From: Candidatus Omnitrophota bacterium | GTDB taxonomy: Bacteria > Omnitrophota > Gorgyraeia > Zapsychrales > Fredricksoniimonadaceae | Length of the DNA: 60,617 nt | Direction of reading: 5' to 3' | NCBI GenBank assembly: GCA_028870995.1 | Contig: JAGWOI010000014.1 | Span: 1 to 60,617 of the forward strand | Shown: in pieces, positions 54,650-60,617 of the stretch | Position numbering within the stretch: the first letter of the stretch is position 1 | Layout: every line of letters begins with the position of its first letter | Program-made: the position numbers and the translations under genes | The notes under the pieces: model-generated | Database searches by the model: none | Told to the model about the DNA's origin: nothing | Seen by the model: the letters and a program-made list of their open reading frames with translations, nothing else

Positions 54650-54678
54650 TTGTCAAAGCTCCCAGGGTTAGCTATAAT
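54650..54678 (+). promoter_or_regulatory. Promoter of the PpiD/SurA-like gene
   Basis: TTGTCA (54650-54655), 17 bases, TATAAT (54673-54678), start near 54685, about 31 bases before the ATG at 54716. It stands back to back with the hisG promoter, with the two -35 boxes only 9 bases apart. Confidence 0.75.
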
Positions 54679-54715
54679 GGCACCTTTCAAAACCATTCAT
54701 AGGGGACACGTGTTT

Positions 54716-56137
54716 ATGCTCGAAGTTTTCCGCAAGAAAGGCGTCAACCAAACCATCCTTTGGGTCATCACCGTCATCGTCATTCTCTCTTTCGGCGTTT
54801 TCTGGACCGCCAACCGTTACGACACCGGCGTCAACAGTGTCGGTACGATGTACGGCCACAGCGTCAGCCGCCAGGATTTCGAACAGGCTTATGATGATGC
54901 CCGCGACCAGGACATCAGGACCTACGGTACCGATTTCTTCAAAAACAGCGCCAAATTCGACCTGGAAGCACAGGCCTGGGACCGTTTGATCCTCCTACGG
55001 GAAGCCCGCAAGCGCGGCATCAGGATAAGCGACGCCCAGGTGGTGGACGCGATCGCCAGCATGCCATTTTTCCAGACAGGCGGAAAATTTGACGAGGTAC
55101 GGTATGAAGAAACCGTGCAAAGCCCCGACGGTTTTGACCGGCCCACCCATGATTTCGAGGAAGGCGTCCGCCGGCAACTGATGATCAAGAAATTGGTCGA
55201 CCAGGTCGCCCCTGAAAAAACGTTCACTGATGCCGAATTACGCAACATTTACGATAAACGCAACGAAAAGATCACCCTGCAATATGTCTTGTTCAATGCG
55301 GCTGATTATGCCAAGAATGTTCCCGTTACTGACGAGGGCATCAACAAGTATTACCAACAGCACCATGAAGAGTTTGCCGCTCCCCCTTCCATCGTCCTTA
55401 ATTATGTGCAGACCAAGAATAAAGCCCTGGCCCAGGCTCTTTCCCGTCAGCTGGTGCCGGGAAGCGATTTTGCCGCCACGGCCAAAAAATTAAATTTAGA
55501 AGTTAAGACATCCGCGGCCTTTACTCAGGACCAGCCGATCCTTACCTTCGCTTATAATCCCGACAATATCCAAAAGTTCTTTGCCATGGAACCGGGGGAA
55601 TATTCTCCGGTTCTCGAAGCCCCGGACGGCTGGCAGATCGTGCAGCTCAAGGAAAAGCATCCCTCTTCCATCCCCGCTTTAAAGGATATTAAGGATAAAG
55701 TGAAAGAAGCGCTGCTCTTGGAAAAAGGCTTTAGCCTCGCTAAGCCCCAGGCGGACAAGGCGCTAGCCGCGCTGACCAAGGCATTAAAGACCAAAGATTT
55801 TAAGACAGCAGCGACGGACTTAGGCCTGAAGGTCCAGGAGACCCCCGCTTTCGGACGCAGGGAATTCATCGCCAGCACCGGACTGATAGCGGAATTCCAA
55901 CAGGAAGTCGACGAGCTTAATGCGGACAAAAGATTAAGCGGCGTCATCGCCACGTCACAGGGACCGGCCATCATCTATCTTGAAAAAGAACAAAAGCCTT
56001 CAAAGGCGGAGTTTGATTCGGATAAGGAGAACTTCAGGGAAATGCTGGGTGCCGAAGAGCGCAATCAGCTCCTGGTGGCCTTCATAACCCGGCTTCGTGC
56101 CGAAGCTGATGTGCACAGCCGGATCAAGACCCGGTAA
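54716..56137 (+). CDS. PpiD/SurA-like membrane-anchored peptidyl-prolyl isomerase
   Basis: 473 residues from ATG 54716 (MLEVFRKKGVNQTILWVITV); AGGGG is 10 bases upstream. A GTG six bases earlier is also possible. A single membrane helix (about 13-32) anchors it, followed by a SurA_N-like chaperone region (GHSVSRQDFEQAYDDARDQ, RLILLREARKRGIRISDAQV) and a parvulin-like domain (PSIVLNYVQTKNKALAQALS, FFAMEPGEYSPVLEAPDGWQ, IVQLKEK). It should help outer-membrane protein folding in the periplasm. Isomerase residues are weakly conserved, so it may act mainly as a chaperone. It ends 14 bases inside the convergent giant gene. Confidence 0.87.
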   Translation: MLEVFRKKGVNQTILWVITVIVILSFGVFWTANRYDTGVNSVGTMYGHSVSRQDFEQAYDDARDQDIRTYGTDFFKNSAKFDLEAQAWDRLILLREARKRGIRISDAQVVDAIASMPFFQTGGKFDEVRYEETVQSPDGFDRPTHDFEEGVRRQLMIKKLVDQVAPEKTFTDAELRNIYDKRNEKITLQYVLFNAADYAKNVPVTDEGINKYYQQHHEEFAAPPSIVLNYVQTKNKALAQALSRQLVPGSDFAATAKKLNLEVKTSAAFTQDQPILTFAYNPDNIQKFFAMEPGEYSPVLEAPDGWQIVQLKEKHPSSIPALKDIKDKVKEALLLEKGFSLAKPQADKALAALTKALKTKDFKTAATDLGLKVQETPAFGRREFIASTGLIAEFQQEVDELNADKRLSGVIATSQGPAIIYLEKEQKPSKAEFDSDKENFREMLGAEERNQLLVAFITRLRAEADVHSRIKTR

Positions 56138-59100
56138 CACCAAGAAACTTCCTCAAGTCAACCATAGGCTGGACATGGATAATGACCGGCATGAAACCCG
56201 GGGCATTGCCCAACCGGGCCAGCTGGGCGGGATCAAGATGAAATTTAATCGCCTGGCCGGAGTTATTCATGTGCAGATTCATTTGCCCGGCGGTCAGGTC
56301 GATACCGCCGGTCGTCTGGGCCTTGTCCGCATCCAAGATGCCTTGCAGCATGTTGCCCACCTCTGCCATCGACGCCGGACGCTGTGCCGACGCCCCCACC
56401 ATGCGATTGGTCAGGTCATCGATCTTCATGGAAACGTTCTGCGATACCGGGTTTTCGACATCATGCTGCGAAAGCACATCCTGCAAGGTCCTGCCCAGGC
56501 TGTACATGTCGGAAGAAACGCTGCTTAAATTTTCATACTTGTCCGAATAAGAAGGTGTCATGGCGGGGATCGGTTCACCGAACTTCCTGGCAATGCCAAA
56601 ATCAATCAACATAAATTCGCCCCGGGCATTAACAACGATGTTCGCCGGTTTAATATCATTATGCGCCCACCCCAATTGGTGAACCGCCTGCAGCGTTTGG
56701 ACAAGGCCCTGCACAATACCTATTTTTGCAGCCATAGGCATGGCAAACCAAAACTCCGGCGATTTATTAAGGCTTACCCCTCCCTCGATGCCTTTTAGTT
56801 TCATCCAAAAGGCGTTGTTCTCATCGACCCCTACCTCCAAAAGCTGCGGCACTCCCTGAATTCCCGACTCATTCATATGATAAATCAACCGCGCGGAATC
56901 CTTGGTGGTCTTATTAGAGGGGCCGCGATGCGCGACCTTATAAAAAATGCTTGTGTCGTCCGGGTCCTGGTAGACAGAGGCCGCCCCGCCTTCTCCCAGG
57001 ACTTCCATCCGGGCAAAATCCGGTGCCGATTCGCTGACAAGCCCGTCGAATTCGGGTATCTTATTCAATAAATTTAATGCCTGTTTTCTGGCCCCGGAAA
57101 CCGGTGGCAGTACGGAGACCATGGCACTGTTGGCGCTGTTGGCAATCTCGCTCAACCGCAAGGCGTCAGGATTATTTTGATCTACCAGTTCAGGCAGCGC
57201 AAACTTCAATAACGCCGCGGGGCTGCCCTGCTTTTCCAAGAAAGCCTGCTTTTGCATTATTAAACCGCCGAGATGCCCAACCTCAATGAAGAACGTGTAT
57301 TGGCCGTTAGTCCATCTGGCCTGATCTTGAGCGACGTAGCCGATGACATCCCTTCTATAAATATCCGCCATGGACTTGACGTCATGGGCCAACCGAGCCG
57401 ATTTAAATTGTCCGTCGTCCAAAGGATCCAACGCCGCGAGAACGGCCTTTTTCGCATTTTCCGGCTGGGTCCAATAATTATCTTCTATTTCCAAAGTGCG
57501 CAAAGCTTCCGGATTGGTTTGGTCCACCAGCCGGGGCAAAGCAAACCTTAACAGGGCTGCCGGGCTGCTCTCCTTATCTAAATAAGGTTTTTTGACCACA
57601 GAAGCCATCAGGCCAGAAAGGCCGCCTCTCTCCCTGAAAAATCCTATTTGACCGTCGGTAAACCTTTTGCTATCGGAGGCTTTGTAGGCGATAACATACT
57701 TTCTGTACAACTCGGCCATACGTTTAATATCCCCCGCCTTACGGGCCGCTTCAAATTTCCCCTTGTCTTCAACGCTTTCATCGCCAATACTATCCAGCAC
57801 AGCCAGGATATAATTCTTCGCGGTGATTTCATTGTCCCAAAAACCCCGGGGAAAGGTCACATGGTCTCTTCGCTTGGCCATGTACCACCTCTTAGCGTCC
57901 GCATAAGAAAAACCGTCCTTCACTGCTTTGATTTCAGAAGGGCTGCTGCGCATGGCCGGGTCTTGTGAAACACTGTAATCAATTTCCAGCGTAATGGCCG
58001 TGTTGTTTTCAATGGAAACGCTGGTACCGTTGTTGGTAAACTTCAGCCCTCCCTCAAACCGCGCGGACTTATTGGCATCAACCACCCTGCGTACGGTGCC
58101 TTCCCAGTCCGCCATAAATAACTCCCCGTTAGTGAAGCCAAGGGCCAATTCGCTGCCGCTTACACGGACCAAGGCCTTGCCGCGCCACCCGGCCTCAAAG
58201 GTCATGGTGCTTCCAGGAGCCAAGAATCTTGTTTTGGGCAGGATCCCCTGGTCCTCTCCGGTGGCCTTCTGCAAATCCTCATCGGCATCAGGAGTGGACA
58301 GGCGTTCGAAAAAAGGGTTTCTTGAAGAGAAATACTGTTTATACCTGCCCAGGTCCTGCGCTTTCAAGAACTCTCTGACTTCAGGATAGGTATCAAATTC
58401 GTTTAAGATGCCCACCAAATTCCAATACAACTCCGAGCCGTTGATTTTATCGAGCGGTGATCCGCTGCCTTTCATCAATTGCATTAAGTTAGCTCTATTG
58501 TGGTCTATGACCAGCACCCTCCTTAAAGAATTGAGCATATACCCCTGGTATTCCATACCTCTCCTGTCTTGGAAGGCGTTGAAATACAGGATCAGTTTGT
58601 TCAGATAACTTCGCAAGGCCGGCACGCTCTGATCAAGGACAACTTCATTCTCAGCATCGATCATATCTACGAATAACGGCTTTATGTCCACAGCAGGCGT
58701 CGTTCGTATTTCTTCCCTGAATAATCCGATATGGATATCCCAGGCCTTCCACGGAAAAACCAAGGGTTTGGAAACAAGCAAGCGCAGATCCTGGTCGTCC
58801 GATTTGAGGATGGCCTTAAGAAAGGCATATACTTCATTGGCGTTGGCGTCTTTAACCAGCTGGAGAACATCTTTACTTGTGATGCTGACGGTATTGGTCT
58901 CGCTGACACCTTCAATCGTTTTTAAAATCAATTCATTGAGAATTTTGTATTTAGCATATTGTTCAGGATGGTGTTTTTGAAAAGCCGCGTCATCTACACT
59001 GACCATCGCCTGGTTAACCGGTATCGCCTGCTTGATGCCGGCCAGGGCACTGTTGAGCGCCACCTTGCTTTCATCCGGCAATAAATACCAGACCAGGTCA

Positions 59101-60617
59101 TGCCGTAACATGACCCCAGGGGCAAACATCGATCTTCCCTTAATCTCCTCCTTAAAATAGACTTTATCCCAATTGATCTGTTTAATATCTTTAGCGATGT
59201 CCTCAACCCCCTTGTAATTCTCGGCGAACCTTACAAGCAGCGGTTTTGGGGGAATGGCCCCGTGGTTCTGCGCAAGCCGAAGCGCACGATCGGTGACCTG
59301 GGCATCCCTATCATGAAGGGTCTGTTTCATGTGGTCGGTCACAGCCACCTTGTTGAACCAATCCAGGTCCTGGTTGGAAGGTATATTGACGAGGGGGCCT
59401 GGCAGGGCCGGCTGGCTTATTTGACGCCGCCGTTTGGCCCAGGCCATGAGCAGCAGCCGCATTAAAGAAGTGCGGGTGGATAATTGTTCATACGATTGGC
59501 GGTCCATGGCCACGACTGTTTTCAAAAAATGTTCGGGATCTTTGAAGTCTACCTTATCGTTCTTAAGCGCGCGAAAAAGCTGGCGGGCCGTGGCAGAAAT
59601 ATCATCTCCATTAAGCGCGTAAAGTTGACTAAGAATATATTGCCCTACAAAATGATTAAACCCGTAATGCGCATCTTTTACAGCCTTTAACAAAAGCGTT
59701 CTGATCTGGCCGCTGCCGGTATTCAAATGTTCTTTGATCATCTGGGCGCGGACGTAGTCCATGAATGCGTTTAAAAATTCGGTAAAGTCACTGTCCTTTG
59801 AATACCCCCTGGGTACATTCTCCCAATTCCACTGGGGATTGTCCTTAATGAATCCTATCAGCAGTTTTCCTATCGCAGCACCCTGCTCCAAGCCTGCCGT
59901 ATTAAAGGACTCCTTTGACAAACGGCCCACCAAGGTGCTGACAAGGGTGTCATAGGCTTCAGCAACCCCATTATGAGGCGCTTGCTGGCGCAAGGCAAAA
60001 TGAATGGCATGACCTACCTCGGAACCCAAACCATGAATGCCGTCATCCACCACCCAATCAATCGTGATTTTATCCTTATACATCCCGTTCGTTGTTGAAG
60101 GATAGGTCCCTTTGGATAACCGCAGGTCAATCTTGCGCATGACTTCGTCGGCCAATTGCGGCTGCCCCATCCGGGAAAGGGCCATGGTCACCACCTCGCG
60201 CAGCAAATCCATGGCCCTGGCATGCTGGGGCGTGTCTTTTTGACGCTGATAGGCCTCCTCCTGCCGGTTCATGAAATTTTCGTAAACGGTATTGGCGGCA
60301 GAATTTTCGCCTAGCATGGCGGGGTTGGAGGCGGTTATGTCGACTAAAACGTCATATGAAGGTCCGGCTTCCTGCTGTTGGTAGCTTTTCAACCAGGTTT
60401 TAACGGTCTGTAAAATACCGCCCTGCATGGCCATGTTGGTCTTACCGATCATGGCAAAATTGACCCCCCCTGAAAAATACTTCCTGGGGATCATCTGCTG
60501 GGTCAGCGGGTCCTGTTCTTCTTTGATGTAGTTGTATACCCCCTTCTTGAAGGCCTGTAAGTACCGTTGGTATATCTTCTGCTTTTCCTGAGGGTCCCGG
60601 ATACTGATCCCCGCCAC
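56124..60617 (-). CDS. Giant multidomain protein with C-terminal Ser/Thr kinase (5' end outside window)
   Basis: 1497 residues to the window edge; the frame is open there, so the true start is beyond. Layout: residues 1-790 unrecognised, with GIHGLGSEVGHAIHFALRQQ near 193-212; a beta-rich module about 798-885; two tandem repeats of about 115-120 residues (922-1046 and 1047-1162; shared features RFTDGQ/RWTNGQ, SPAALLRFALP/SPAALLKFALP, LVDQ); then an intact eukaryotic-type kinase domain about 1205-1428 with LGEGGAASVY, Lys1227, HNDIKPAN (1319-1326), IDFG (1338-1341) and SDMYSLG (1369-1375). The end (GGIDLTAGQMNLHM, FMPVIIHVQPMVDL) resembles a C-terminal segment I recall from Omnitrophota giant proteins. 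Likely a signalling protein; substrates unknown. Confidence 0.75.
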   Translation of the reverse strand: MAGISIRDPQEKQKIYQRYLQAFKKGVYNYIKEEQDPLTQQMIPRKYFSGGVNFAMIGKTNMAMQGGILQTVKTWLKSYQQQEAGPSYDVLVDITASNPAMLGENSAANTVYENFMNRQEEAYQRQKDTPQHARAMDLLREVVTMALSRMGQPQLADEVMRKIDLRLSKGTYPSTTNGMYKDKITIDWVVDDGIHGLGSEVGHAIHFALRQQAPHNGVAEAYDTLVSTLVGRLSKESFNTAGLEQGAAIGKLLIGFIKDNPQWNWENVPRGYSKDSDFTEFLNAFMDYVRAQMIKEHLNTGSGQIRTLLLKAVKDAHYGFNHFVGQYILSQLYALNGDDISATARQLFRALKNDKVDFKDPEHFLKTVVAMDRQSYEQLSTRTSLMRLLLMAWAKRRRQISQPALPGPLVNIPSNQDLDWFNKVAVTDHMKQTLHDRDAQVTDRALRLAQNHGAIPPKPLLVRFAENYKGVEDIAKDIKQINWDKVYFKEEIKGRSMFAPGVMLRHDLVWYLLPDESKVALNSALAGIKQAIPVNQAMVSVDDAAFQKHHPEQYAKYKILNELILKTIEGVSETNTVSITSKDVLQLVKDANANEVYAFLKAILKSDDQDLRLLVSKPLVFPWKAWDIHIGLFREEIRTTPAVDIKPLFVDMIDAENEVVLDQSVPALRSYLNKLILYFNAFQDRRGMEYQGYMLNSLRRVLVIDHNRANLMQLMKGSGSPLDKINGSELYWNLVGILNEFDTYPEVREFLKAQDLGRYKQYFSSRNPFFERLSTPDADEDLQKATGEDQGILPKTRFLAPGSTMTFEAGWRGKALVRVSGSELALGFTNGELFMADWEGTVRRVVDANKSARFEGGLKFTNNGTSVSIENNTAITLEIDYSVSQDPAMRSSPSEIKAVKDGFSYADAKRWYMAKRRDHVTFPRGFWDNEITAKNYILAVLDSIGDESVEDKGKFEAARKAGDIKRMAELYRKYVIAYKASDSKRFTDGQIGFFRERGGLSGLMASVVKKPYLDKESSPAALLRFALPRLVDQTNPEALRTLEIEDNYWTQPENAKKAVLAALDPLDDGQFKSARLAHDVKSMADIYRRDVIGYVAQDQARWTNGQYTFFIEVGHLGGLIMQKQAFLEKQGSPAALLKFALPELVDQNNPDALRLSEIANSANSAMVSVLPPVSGARKQALNLLNKIPEFDGLVSESAPDFARMEVLGEGGAASVYQDPDDTSIFYKVAHRGPSNKTTKDSARLIYHMNESGIQGVPQLLEVGVDENNAFWMKLKGIEGGVSLNKSPEFWFAMPMAAKIGIVQGLVQTLQAVHQLGWAHNDIKPANIVVNARGEFMLIDFGIARKFGEPIPAMTPSYSDKYENLSSVSSDMYSLGRTLQDVLSQHDVENPVSQNVSMKIDDLTNRMVGASAQRPASMAEVGNMLQGILDADKAQTTGGIDLTAGQMNLHMNNSGQAIKFHLDPAQLARLGNAPGFMPVIIHVQPMVDLRKFLGVTGS

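Follow-up and report, generated by a model that had tools for sequence, protein, structure and literature searches.

A conserved C-terminal tail on large proteins of Omnitrophota as a possible bookend of an exported polyprotein family

Contig JAGWOI010000014.1 of a Candidatus Omnitrophota bacterium (assembly GCA_028870995.1) is analyzed here as one stretch of 60,617 nucleotides, referred to as the window, which is an entire contig of a 2.34-Mb draft genome. Its minus strand carries an open reading frame (ORF) at 56124-60617 that encodes 1497 residues and has lost its 5' end at the contig end. The last 61 residues, with the pattern GGIDL...PVIIHVQPM..LRKFLG, form a tail that recurs at the ends of large proteins with different bodies. 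Genes of this family start with a signal-peptide-like stretch and a conserved head domain of about 310 residues that ends in YFSGG. Head and tail are constant, the body between them is variable, and a short junction motif, [DN]xAM, is over-represented at the cargo borders in many, not all, genomes. There is, in our estimate, about an even chance that these proteins are a family of exported polyproteins with the tail as their C-terminal bookend. Docking of the tail onto the head and cleavage between the modules are moderately supported components of this proposal, and the destination of the cargo is a weakly supported one.

A shared tail on proteins with different bodies

The occurrence of the tail at C-termini is beyond chance. 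A translated search of the host genome yielded 14 places, 13 of which are the C-termini of ORFs (E 3e-39 to 0.013) spanning 669-5041 residues, five of them cut by contig ends; the fourteenth match (E 0.4, in a 91-residue ORF) is spurious. Three further proteins, found through their common N-terminus, have tails that are divergent as read by eye, bringing the host genome to 16 proteins that end in a version of the tail. In all 67 complete proteins from other genomes that bear both head and tail, no more than 15 residues separate the end of the tail-profile match from the C-terminus; an exception in another protein set is L101, which continues some 50 residues past the tail. The pattern GG[IVM][DN][FLM] appears only twice in 215,552 residues of mechanically called ORFs from outside the family. 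The original prediction, made from the window alone, that this terminus is the ending of unrelated large proteins is confirmed, the bodies of the 16 host-genome proteins being different. Nor is the tail tied to the kinase of the window, which matches only L135, L157, and L159 among the collected proteins; other bodies contain HEAT repeats, methyltransferases, glycolytic enzymes, and more.

The terminus was also predicted to be undescribed, and the tail indeed has no match in Pfam (none at E 1), NCBIfam (no hit over the cut-off), or, by sequence, the PDB (best E 1.5); the NCBIfam matches of the window protein are confined to its kinase region. The notion that it is common to Omnitrophota at large does not hold. 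The tail profile matches 24 of 193 genomes of the phylum: the host genome, the seven genomes listed for its family, 14 of 15 listed for its order, and two of another family. The restriction is thus mostly to one order (22/24), the two genomes of the other family departing from it.

The head domain and its pairing with the tail

The head domain has no match over the cut-off in Pfam or NCBIfam and none by sequence in the PDB, and many of its residues are invariant across the family. In the host genome it was found at 20 places, of which 11 are complete copies and nine are pieces at contig ends (five N-terminal, four C-terminal). Contig C49 has a fifth C-terminal piece but stops before reaching any part of the head. 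We infer that the five N-terminal pieces belong to the five C-terminal pieces. Contigs break inside the head in the window itself (last row of Table 1) and at the ends of C3, C11, C14, C17, C27, C41, C44, and C58. These breaks are presumably an assembly artefact at repeats, the DNA of the paralogues presumably being near identical, which would hide full genes.

A head-profile scan of the genome contigs of 84,980 species confirmed at least 511 relatives, of which the best 80 were kept; by their titles, 78 of these 80 are Omnitrophota or Omnitrophica, one is a 'bacterium', and one is 'Elulimicrobium'. Together with five loci from viral contigs they constitute the 85 loci studied here. When an ORF is called complete if it runs from stop to stop, and 23 head ORFs cut by the locus end are left uncounted, there are 79 complete head ORFs, 68 with the tail by profile and 11 without. 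Five of these 11 have a tail ORF within 30 bases downstream and two within about 700 bases, three have tail-like ends by eye, and L145 has none. The 13 tail ORFs that lack a head at these loci are downstream fragments (eight) or are cut at the locus start (five). In a second collected set, 51 of 57 tail proteins match the head, and five of the other six are cut by the sequence end, the sixth being L113. The head profile matches 56 of the 193 phylum genomes, among them all 24 tail-positive ones, and G107, the only tail-negative genome listed for the order, has neither head nor tail. As the tail is nearly always accompanied by a conserved head, it is the second of two bookends and not a free-standing tag. 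Among the roles first suggested for the terminus (sorting, docking, or anchoring), docking onto the head fits best, short of proof.

Short ORFs of about 86-152 residues with a tail and no head occur in G116 and G121 and represent free tails or broken genes. Some family genes are interrupted by stops of all three kinds and by a frameshift, and one interruption adjoins a run of N; this combination indicates that the interruptions are probably errors or decay, and readthrough was rejected as their explanation. Tail-like GGIDL or GGIDF is also found inside two chains, around residue 1410 of L097 and around residue 735 of L088, suggesting an end-to-end fusion of two family members.

Twenty head-bearing regions were read in five genomes outside the order. 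All eight in G176 (L223-L230) end, by eye, in GGI[DK]-type tails of similar layout, for example GGIKMSxIPVISS...FRIVSMKHIASLAQF. In G122, G163, and G102 (L231-L242), 9 of 11 head proteins end in a different block, ..SGIxPSxxRIKEYLAAC.., the exceptions being L236, which lacks the block, and one that is cut; the head protein of G073 ends in a shortened GIDL. Judging from these conserved ends in other lineages, the head seems to have been paired with one conserved end or another before the present tail type arose.

On viral contigs L206-L210, a gene with the head domain is situated at the end of a region of phage-type tail genes, which in L206, L207, and L210 includes three radical-SAM-like genes (by eye). 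The family gene has the tail in L206 and L207 and a tail-like end in L208; in L209 and L210 the head is divergent and the gene is cut. It looks as if phages carry members of the family. A search of plasmid and phage records with the head matched six Streptomyces plasmids and no phage record.

Docking of the tail and known sorting systems

The six Streptomyces plasmid proteins (e.g. WP_121549542; L243-L248) share the core of the head, with 26-32% identity in the five listed and E values to 7e-29; two of them are 94% identical in the core. In all six, GG[IV]DF precedes the aligned core by 41-56 residues and GGVD[FL] lies within 17 residues of its end, compared with a background of 2 in 215,552 residues. 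The first of these elements aligns with the tail profile (hhalign 71%, pairwise E 4e-5, 28 columns), and a plain hidden Markov model of the tail gives 3.8 bits at best. This element does not match the head's own start, and homology of that start with the tail is not supported. These proteins resemble the family in the head core and in GGxDF elements on both sides of it, whereas they differ in the sequence before the core and in that the tail-like element adjoins the core, not the C-terminus. The presence of such an element beside the head core lends independent support to the suggestion that the tail docks on the head. The Streptomyces proteins have, by eye, signal-peptide-like starts and C-terminal membrane-like segments, preceded by LAxTG in L244, L245, and L247, which speaks for an extracytoplasmic head. 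No claim is made for their upstream parts, one of which is deaminase-like and two nuclease-like by eye; nothing was found for these in Pfam at E 1, and a PDB search by sequence gave nothing useful for two.

Structural models are consistent with docking. Modelled alone, the window tail is weakly predicted and has no strands (predicted local distance difference test, pLDDT, 73; predicted template modelling score, pTM, 0.27; 75 sequences). In the full-length model of L135 (28 sequences) the tail of that protein forms three strands, its first 20 residues scoring pLDDT 85-87, and may contact the head; the later part of the tail is less confident than in the tail alone (66-72 vs 79-88). A structure search with the full L135 model, including its kinase cargo, gave nothing at E 0.001 or better among the matches listed, and those from the PDB are mostly kinases, i.e. 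dominated by the cargo.

The constant part of these proteins is a putative trafficking module, as judged from the signal peptides: 55 of 67 family proteins pass a simple rule for one, and the other 12 are plausible by eye. An unlikely alternative to the bookend proposal is that the tail is a C-terminal sorting signal for a dedicated export or anchoring machine, with the head being independent. The strict C-terminal position, the signal-peptide pattern on differing bodies, and the restriction mostly to one order agree with this idea, as does L113 (2360 residues), a complete tail-bearing protein with no head in its ORF or in the upstream sequence at hand. The other head-less tails at the 85 loci, however, are fragments or start-cut ORFs, and the tail-like element of the Streptomyces relatives lies mid-chain. 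Moreover, the enzymes of known C-terminal sorting systems do not track the tail across 13 genomes (12 tail-positive), and these systems were rejected: sortase (PF04203) was found in 0/13 and the C25/PorU-type peptidase (PF01364) in one (G132), while exosortase (PF09721) is found in seven, being absent from six tail-positive genomes and present in tail-negative G107. The association with export genes that the original prediction proposed to look for was not seen, as no export gene consistently adjoins the family.

Variable cargo and the junction motif

Pfam was searched with 38 proteins, all 16 of the host genome and 22 of 41 others. Half of them (19/38) have at least one domain over the cut-off and the other 19 have none. 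The known domains are mostly cytosolic-type enzymes, and include kinase, HEAT repeats with DUF218, phosphoesterase, UTP-glucose-1-phosphate uridylyltransferase, response-regulator receiver, starch synthase, adenylate kinase with GNAT, GH26, M28 peptidase, methyltransferases, NUDIX, histidine-kinase-type ATPase, and isocitrate lyase with malate synthase, among others. The kinase of the window has a 54%-identical relative as the cargo of L135.

The presence of several complete proteins in one ORF, as in a polyprotein, is observed in L111 (2991 residues, genome G115), which contains two GAPDH stretches, PGK, enolase, and a weak aldolase match. GAPDH, PGK, and enolase are near full length, each between junction sites, and are separated by DQAM or DKAM. 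Compared with solved structures, the cysteine and histidine of GAPDH are kept, PGK keeps RVDFN, TRIRA, GRPKG, and GGGDS, and enolase keeps its acidic and lysine residues, all of which we take to be the catalytic residues. Departures are an insert of about 45 residues in PGK and a D instead of E after its NGPMG, and the enolase alignment ends at 395 of 430 residues. G115 has another PGK ORF, which is partial (model positions 102-379).

The junction motif is strongly enriched in the bodies. D.AM was seen 159 times in a first set of 57 proteins (9.2 expected) and 112 times in the bodies of the 67 complete proteins of a second set (7.6 expected); these sets overlap by three proteins and at least four genomes, and after dropping the overlapping genomes the count is 100 vs 6.3 expected (54 proteins). 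It is not in excess in 432 background ORFs called mechanically at these loci, a set that may include non-genes (14 vs 21.3), or in the head domains (0 vs 1.5). The control patterns E.AM (10 vs 8.5) and D.MA (8 vs 7.6) show no excess, and the related patterns D.AQ and DA.M show a slight excess (27 vs 13.0) and some excess (18 vs 7.6), respectively.

The sites are located at the borders of modules. In 51/67 proteins a loosely defined AM motif follows the head within 60 residues, a count given without a control, and in 36/67 a loosely defined site precedes the tail by at most 60 residues, compared with 12% at random positions. Of the 105 [DN]xA[MQ] sites in 17 proteins that have Pfam domains, one falls inside the best domain stretch, with 15.5 expected if sites were uniform; this count uses only the best stretch per domain, and some of the sites are in the head or tail. 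Similarly, segments shared between bodies contain 11 sites where 61.2 are expected, and 24% of their ends have a site no more than 20 residues away, against 11% at random, though in both comparisons the pairs are not independent. In L088, DRAM is directly followed by MTRRNFL..., a twin-arginine translocation (TAT)-type signal with its own methionine (Pfam score 22.6 bits, just below the cut-off of 22.7), and hydrophobic starts follow 8 of 109 sites compared with 7 of 670 random positions. The family thus seems to have acquired its cargo in the form of complete genes. A lipobox-like stretch follows a site in L182 (by eye).

Other roles for the motif were considered and rejected. Internal translation starts behind DxAM are not indicated, as there is no excess of Shine-Dalgarno sequences (18/112 vs 256/1393 control methionines). 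A DNA element behind it was likewise dismissed, the aspartate codons being those of the background; the alanine codons are somewhat shifted (GCG 40% vs 27%). The motif differs between lineages: D.AM ranks first in 4 of 12 genome groups and second in a fifth, where N.AM leads, and most of the remaining groups have few copies of it; in the bodies of G176, S.SP is enriched in its place (17 vs 2.4, eight proteins).

It is quite unlikely that these proteins are uncut multidomain scaffolds, in which the junction motif would be a conserved flexible linker and the bookends would anchor a multi-enzyme protein. Such scaffolds would fit with the absence of an identified protease and with a motif that is short, lineage-dependent, and missing in several genomes. 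They fit poorly, however, with whole enzymes between sites, with the TAT-type signal of L088 and the lipobox-like stretch of L182, and with a 15-fold enrichment of a three-residue pattern, which is more specific than a generic linker.

A possible route from gene to cargo

According to the bookend proposal, each gene would encode a Sec-type signal peptide, the head of about 310 residues, one or more unrelated cargo proteins, and the tail. The head domain would be the docking site for the first strands of the tail. The two chain ends would thereby come together as one unit, which may mark the protein to be exported, retained, or processed; a protease would subsequently cut at or near the junction motifs and free the cargo. 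In the least certain step, the cargo would work in a nucleotide-rich compartment outside the producer's cytoplasm, e.g. in a host or prey cell; this workplace is deemed probable because much of the recognizable cargo is ATP-, NAD-, or phosphosugar-dependent.

A wider version is tentative and somewhat doubtful. It holds that an Omnitrophota lineage exports entire sets of metabolic and regulatory enzymes as bookended polyproteins, one chain carrying GAPDH, PGK, enolase, and perhaps aldolase and a second one malate synthase together with isocitrate lyase. Head and tail would be the export or docking device, a lineage-specific protease would cut motifs such as DxAM or SxSP, and the enzymes would act inside the cells of a host or prey. 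In Streptomyces, surface-anchored proteins may make use of the same pairing of head and tail.

Several observations weigh against the bookend proposal. Cleavage, export, and activity are predictions from sequence and models, and no protease or receptor has been identified for the family. Clustering of 901 neighbouring ORFs from the 85 loci revealed no conserved neighbour gene: the largest cluster touches 8/85 loci and the clusters shown look generic by eye, phage genes common to the viral contigs being the exception. The motif D.AM is absent from six CAIVRE and three JADLGJ proteins, occurs just once in four JADFXW and three CAJBYM proteins, and 9/67 proteins are without any [DN]xA[MQ] site; a single universal site is therefore excluded. 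L113 has a tail without a head, and several very short tail-bearing ORFs lie outside the pairing counts. The two models compared are of different proteins, and that of L135 is poor overall (mean pLDDT 56.5). Strong co-variation of head and tail was rejected, as it is weak (r 0.14 overall, p 0.012) and significant in one of three genomes. Finally, the Streptomyces element was chosen by its GGxD look, which favours its profile score.

That the family consists of pseudogenes or recent in-frame fusions of genes, with no function in common, is very improbable, since the interrupted members and the contigs that break inside the head, which would fit it, stand against 68 uninterrupted ORFs with both ends conserved, many invariant head residues, and the conserved catalytic residues of L111.

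The window protein and its surroundings

The window ORF starts within a conserved stretch, AGISIRDPQEKQ...IPRKYFSGG, which is the end of the head domain, and the modules that follow are listed in Table 1. HNDIKPAN and DFG in its kinase are presumably the kinase motifs. Near 60000-60023 (ORF residue 199) the protein reads SEVGHAIH...AEAYD, which by eye is metallopeptidase-like minus the first histidine; the serine of SEVGHAIH is also present in the L188 relative. A convergent ORF on the plus strand (54650-56137) has, by eye, the look of a PpiD/SurA-type foldase and shares 14 bases with the end of the tail ORF.

Table 1. Modules and junction-type motifs of the tail-bearing ORF in the window
Feature	Position	Strand	Remarks
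C-terminal tail bookend, GGIDL to last residue	56127..56309	-	61 residues; residues 1437-1497 of ORF
Junction-type motif DKAQ	56316..56327	-	directly before tail
Cargo: protein kinase domain PF00069	56415..57014	-	Pfam, E 2e-14; residues 1202-1401
Junction-type motif NSAM	57120..57131	-	before kinase module
Junction-type motif DPAM	57951..57962	-	
Junction-type motif NQAM	59004..59015	-	
Cargo, no assigned function	59508..60332 (limits approximate)	-	about 37% identical to family-protein body in L188
Junction-type motif NPAM	60315..60326	-	
Junction-type motif NFAM	60450..60461	-	immediately past head domain
End of conserved head (N-) domain, ...IPRKYFSGG	60465..60617	-	remainder past contig end

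Relation to known systems and implications

Polymorphic toxin and effector families combine a constant trafficking domain with variable cargo. The tail family is similar in having a constant, putatively exported part, highly variable modules, and many paralogues per genome. It differs in being constant at both ends, often with several complete metabolic-type enzymes in a row and a junction motif, and in that the search of its loci revealed no neighbour that recurs, for instance an immunity gene. Viral polyproteins contain several complete proteins in one ORF, with a short recurring motif at the module borders. The tail family shares this arrangement, whereas it is bacterial, has a signal peptide and many paralogues, has no recognized protease, and uses a motif that varies between lineages. 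In the LPXTG/sortase, PEP-CTERM/exosortase, and type IX secretion C-terminal domain (T9SS CTD) systems, a short conserved C-terminal region is found on unrelated exported proteins. The tail also is a short conserved C-terminus on unrelated, apparently exported proteins, but it does not have a long hydrophobic stretch followed by basic residues, and the enzymes of these systems either are missing or fail to track it.

Omnitrophota are described as an uncultured phylum, in part symbiotic or predatory, with giant ORFs of more than 20 kb that are poorly conserved, have few annotated domains, and have been linked to symbiosis or predation (Seymour et al. 2023, PMC10066038). These giant ORFs and the tail family have in common the phylum, the large size, and the unclear function; they differ in that the portion of that article available to us mentions no shared tail, head domain, or junction motif. 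The short SpeD fusions in the available part of PMC10407285 are unrelated to the tail family. A literature search, with preprints and most subscription papers outside its scope, found no description of the family, and no paper in the literature searched combines 'polyprotein' and 'Omnitrophota'.

The family looks like a new kind of bacterial polyprotein. If this is true, it would be a bacterial polyprotein export system in which complete genes are inserted as new cargo between the two fixed bookends, and enzymes of central metabolism that look intact would leave the cytoplasm. It would also provide a handle on many uncharacterized large proteins of Omnitrophota and a testable route to the dealings of these bacteria with other cells.

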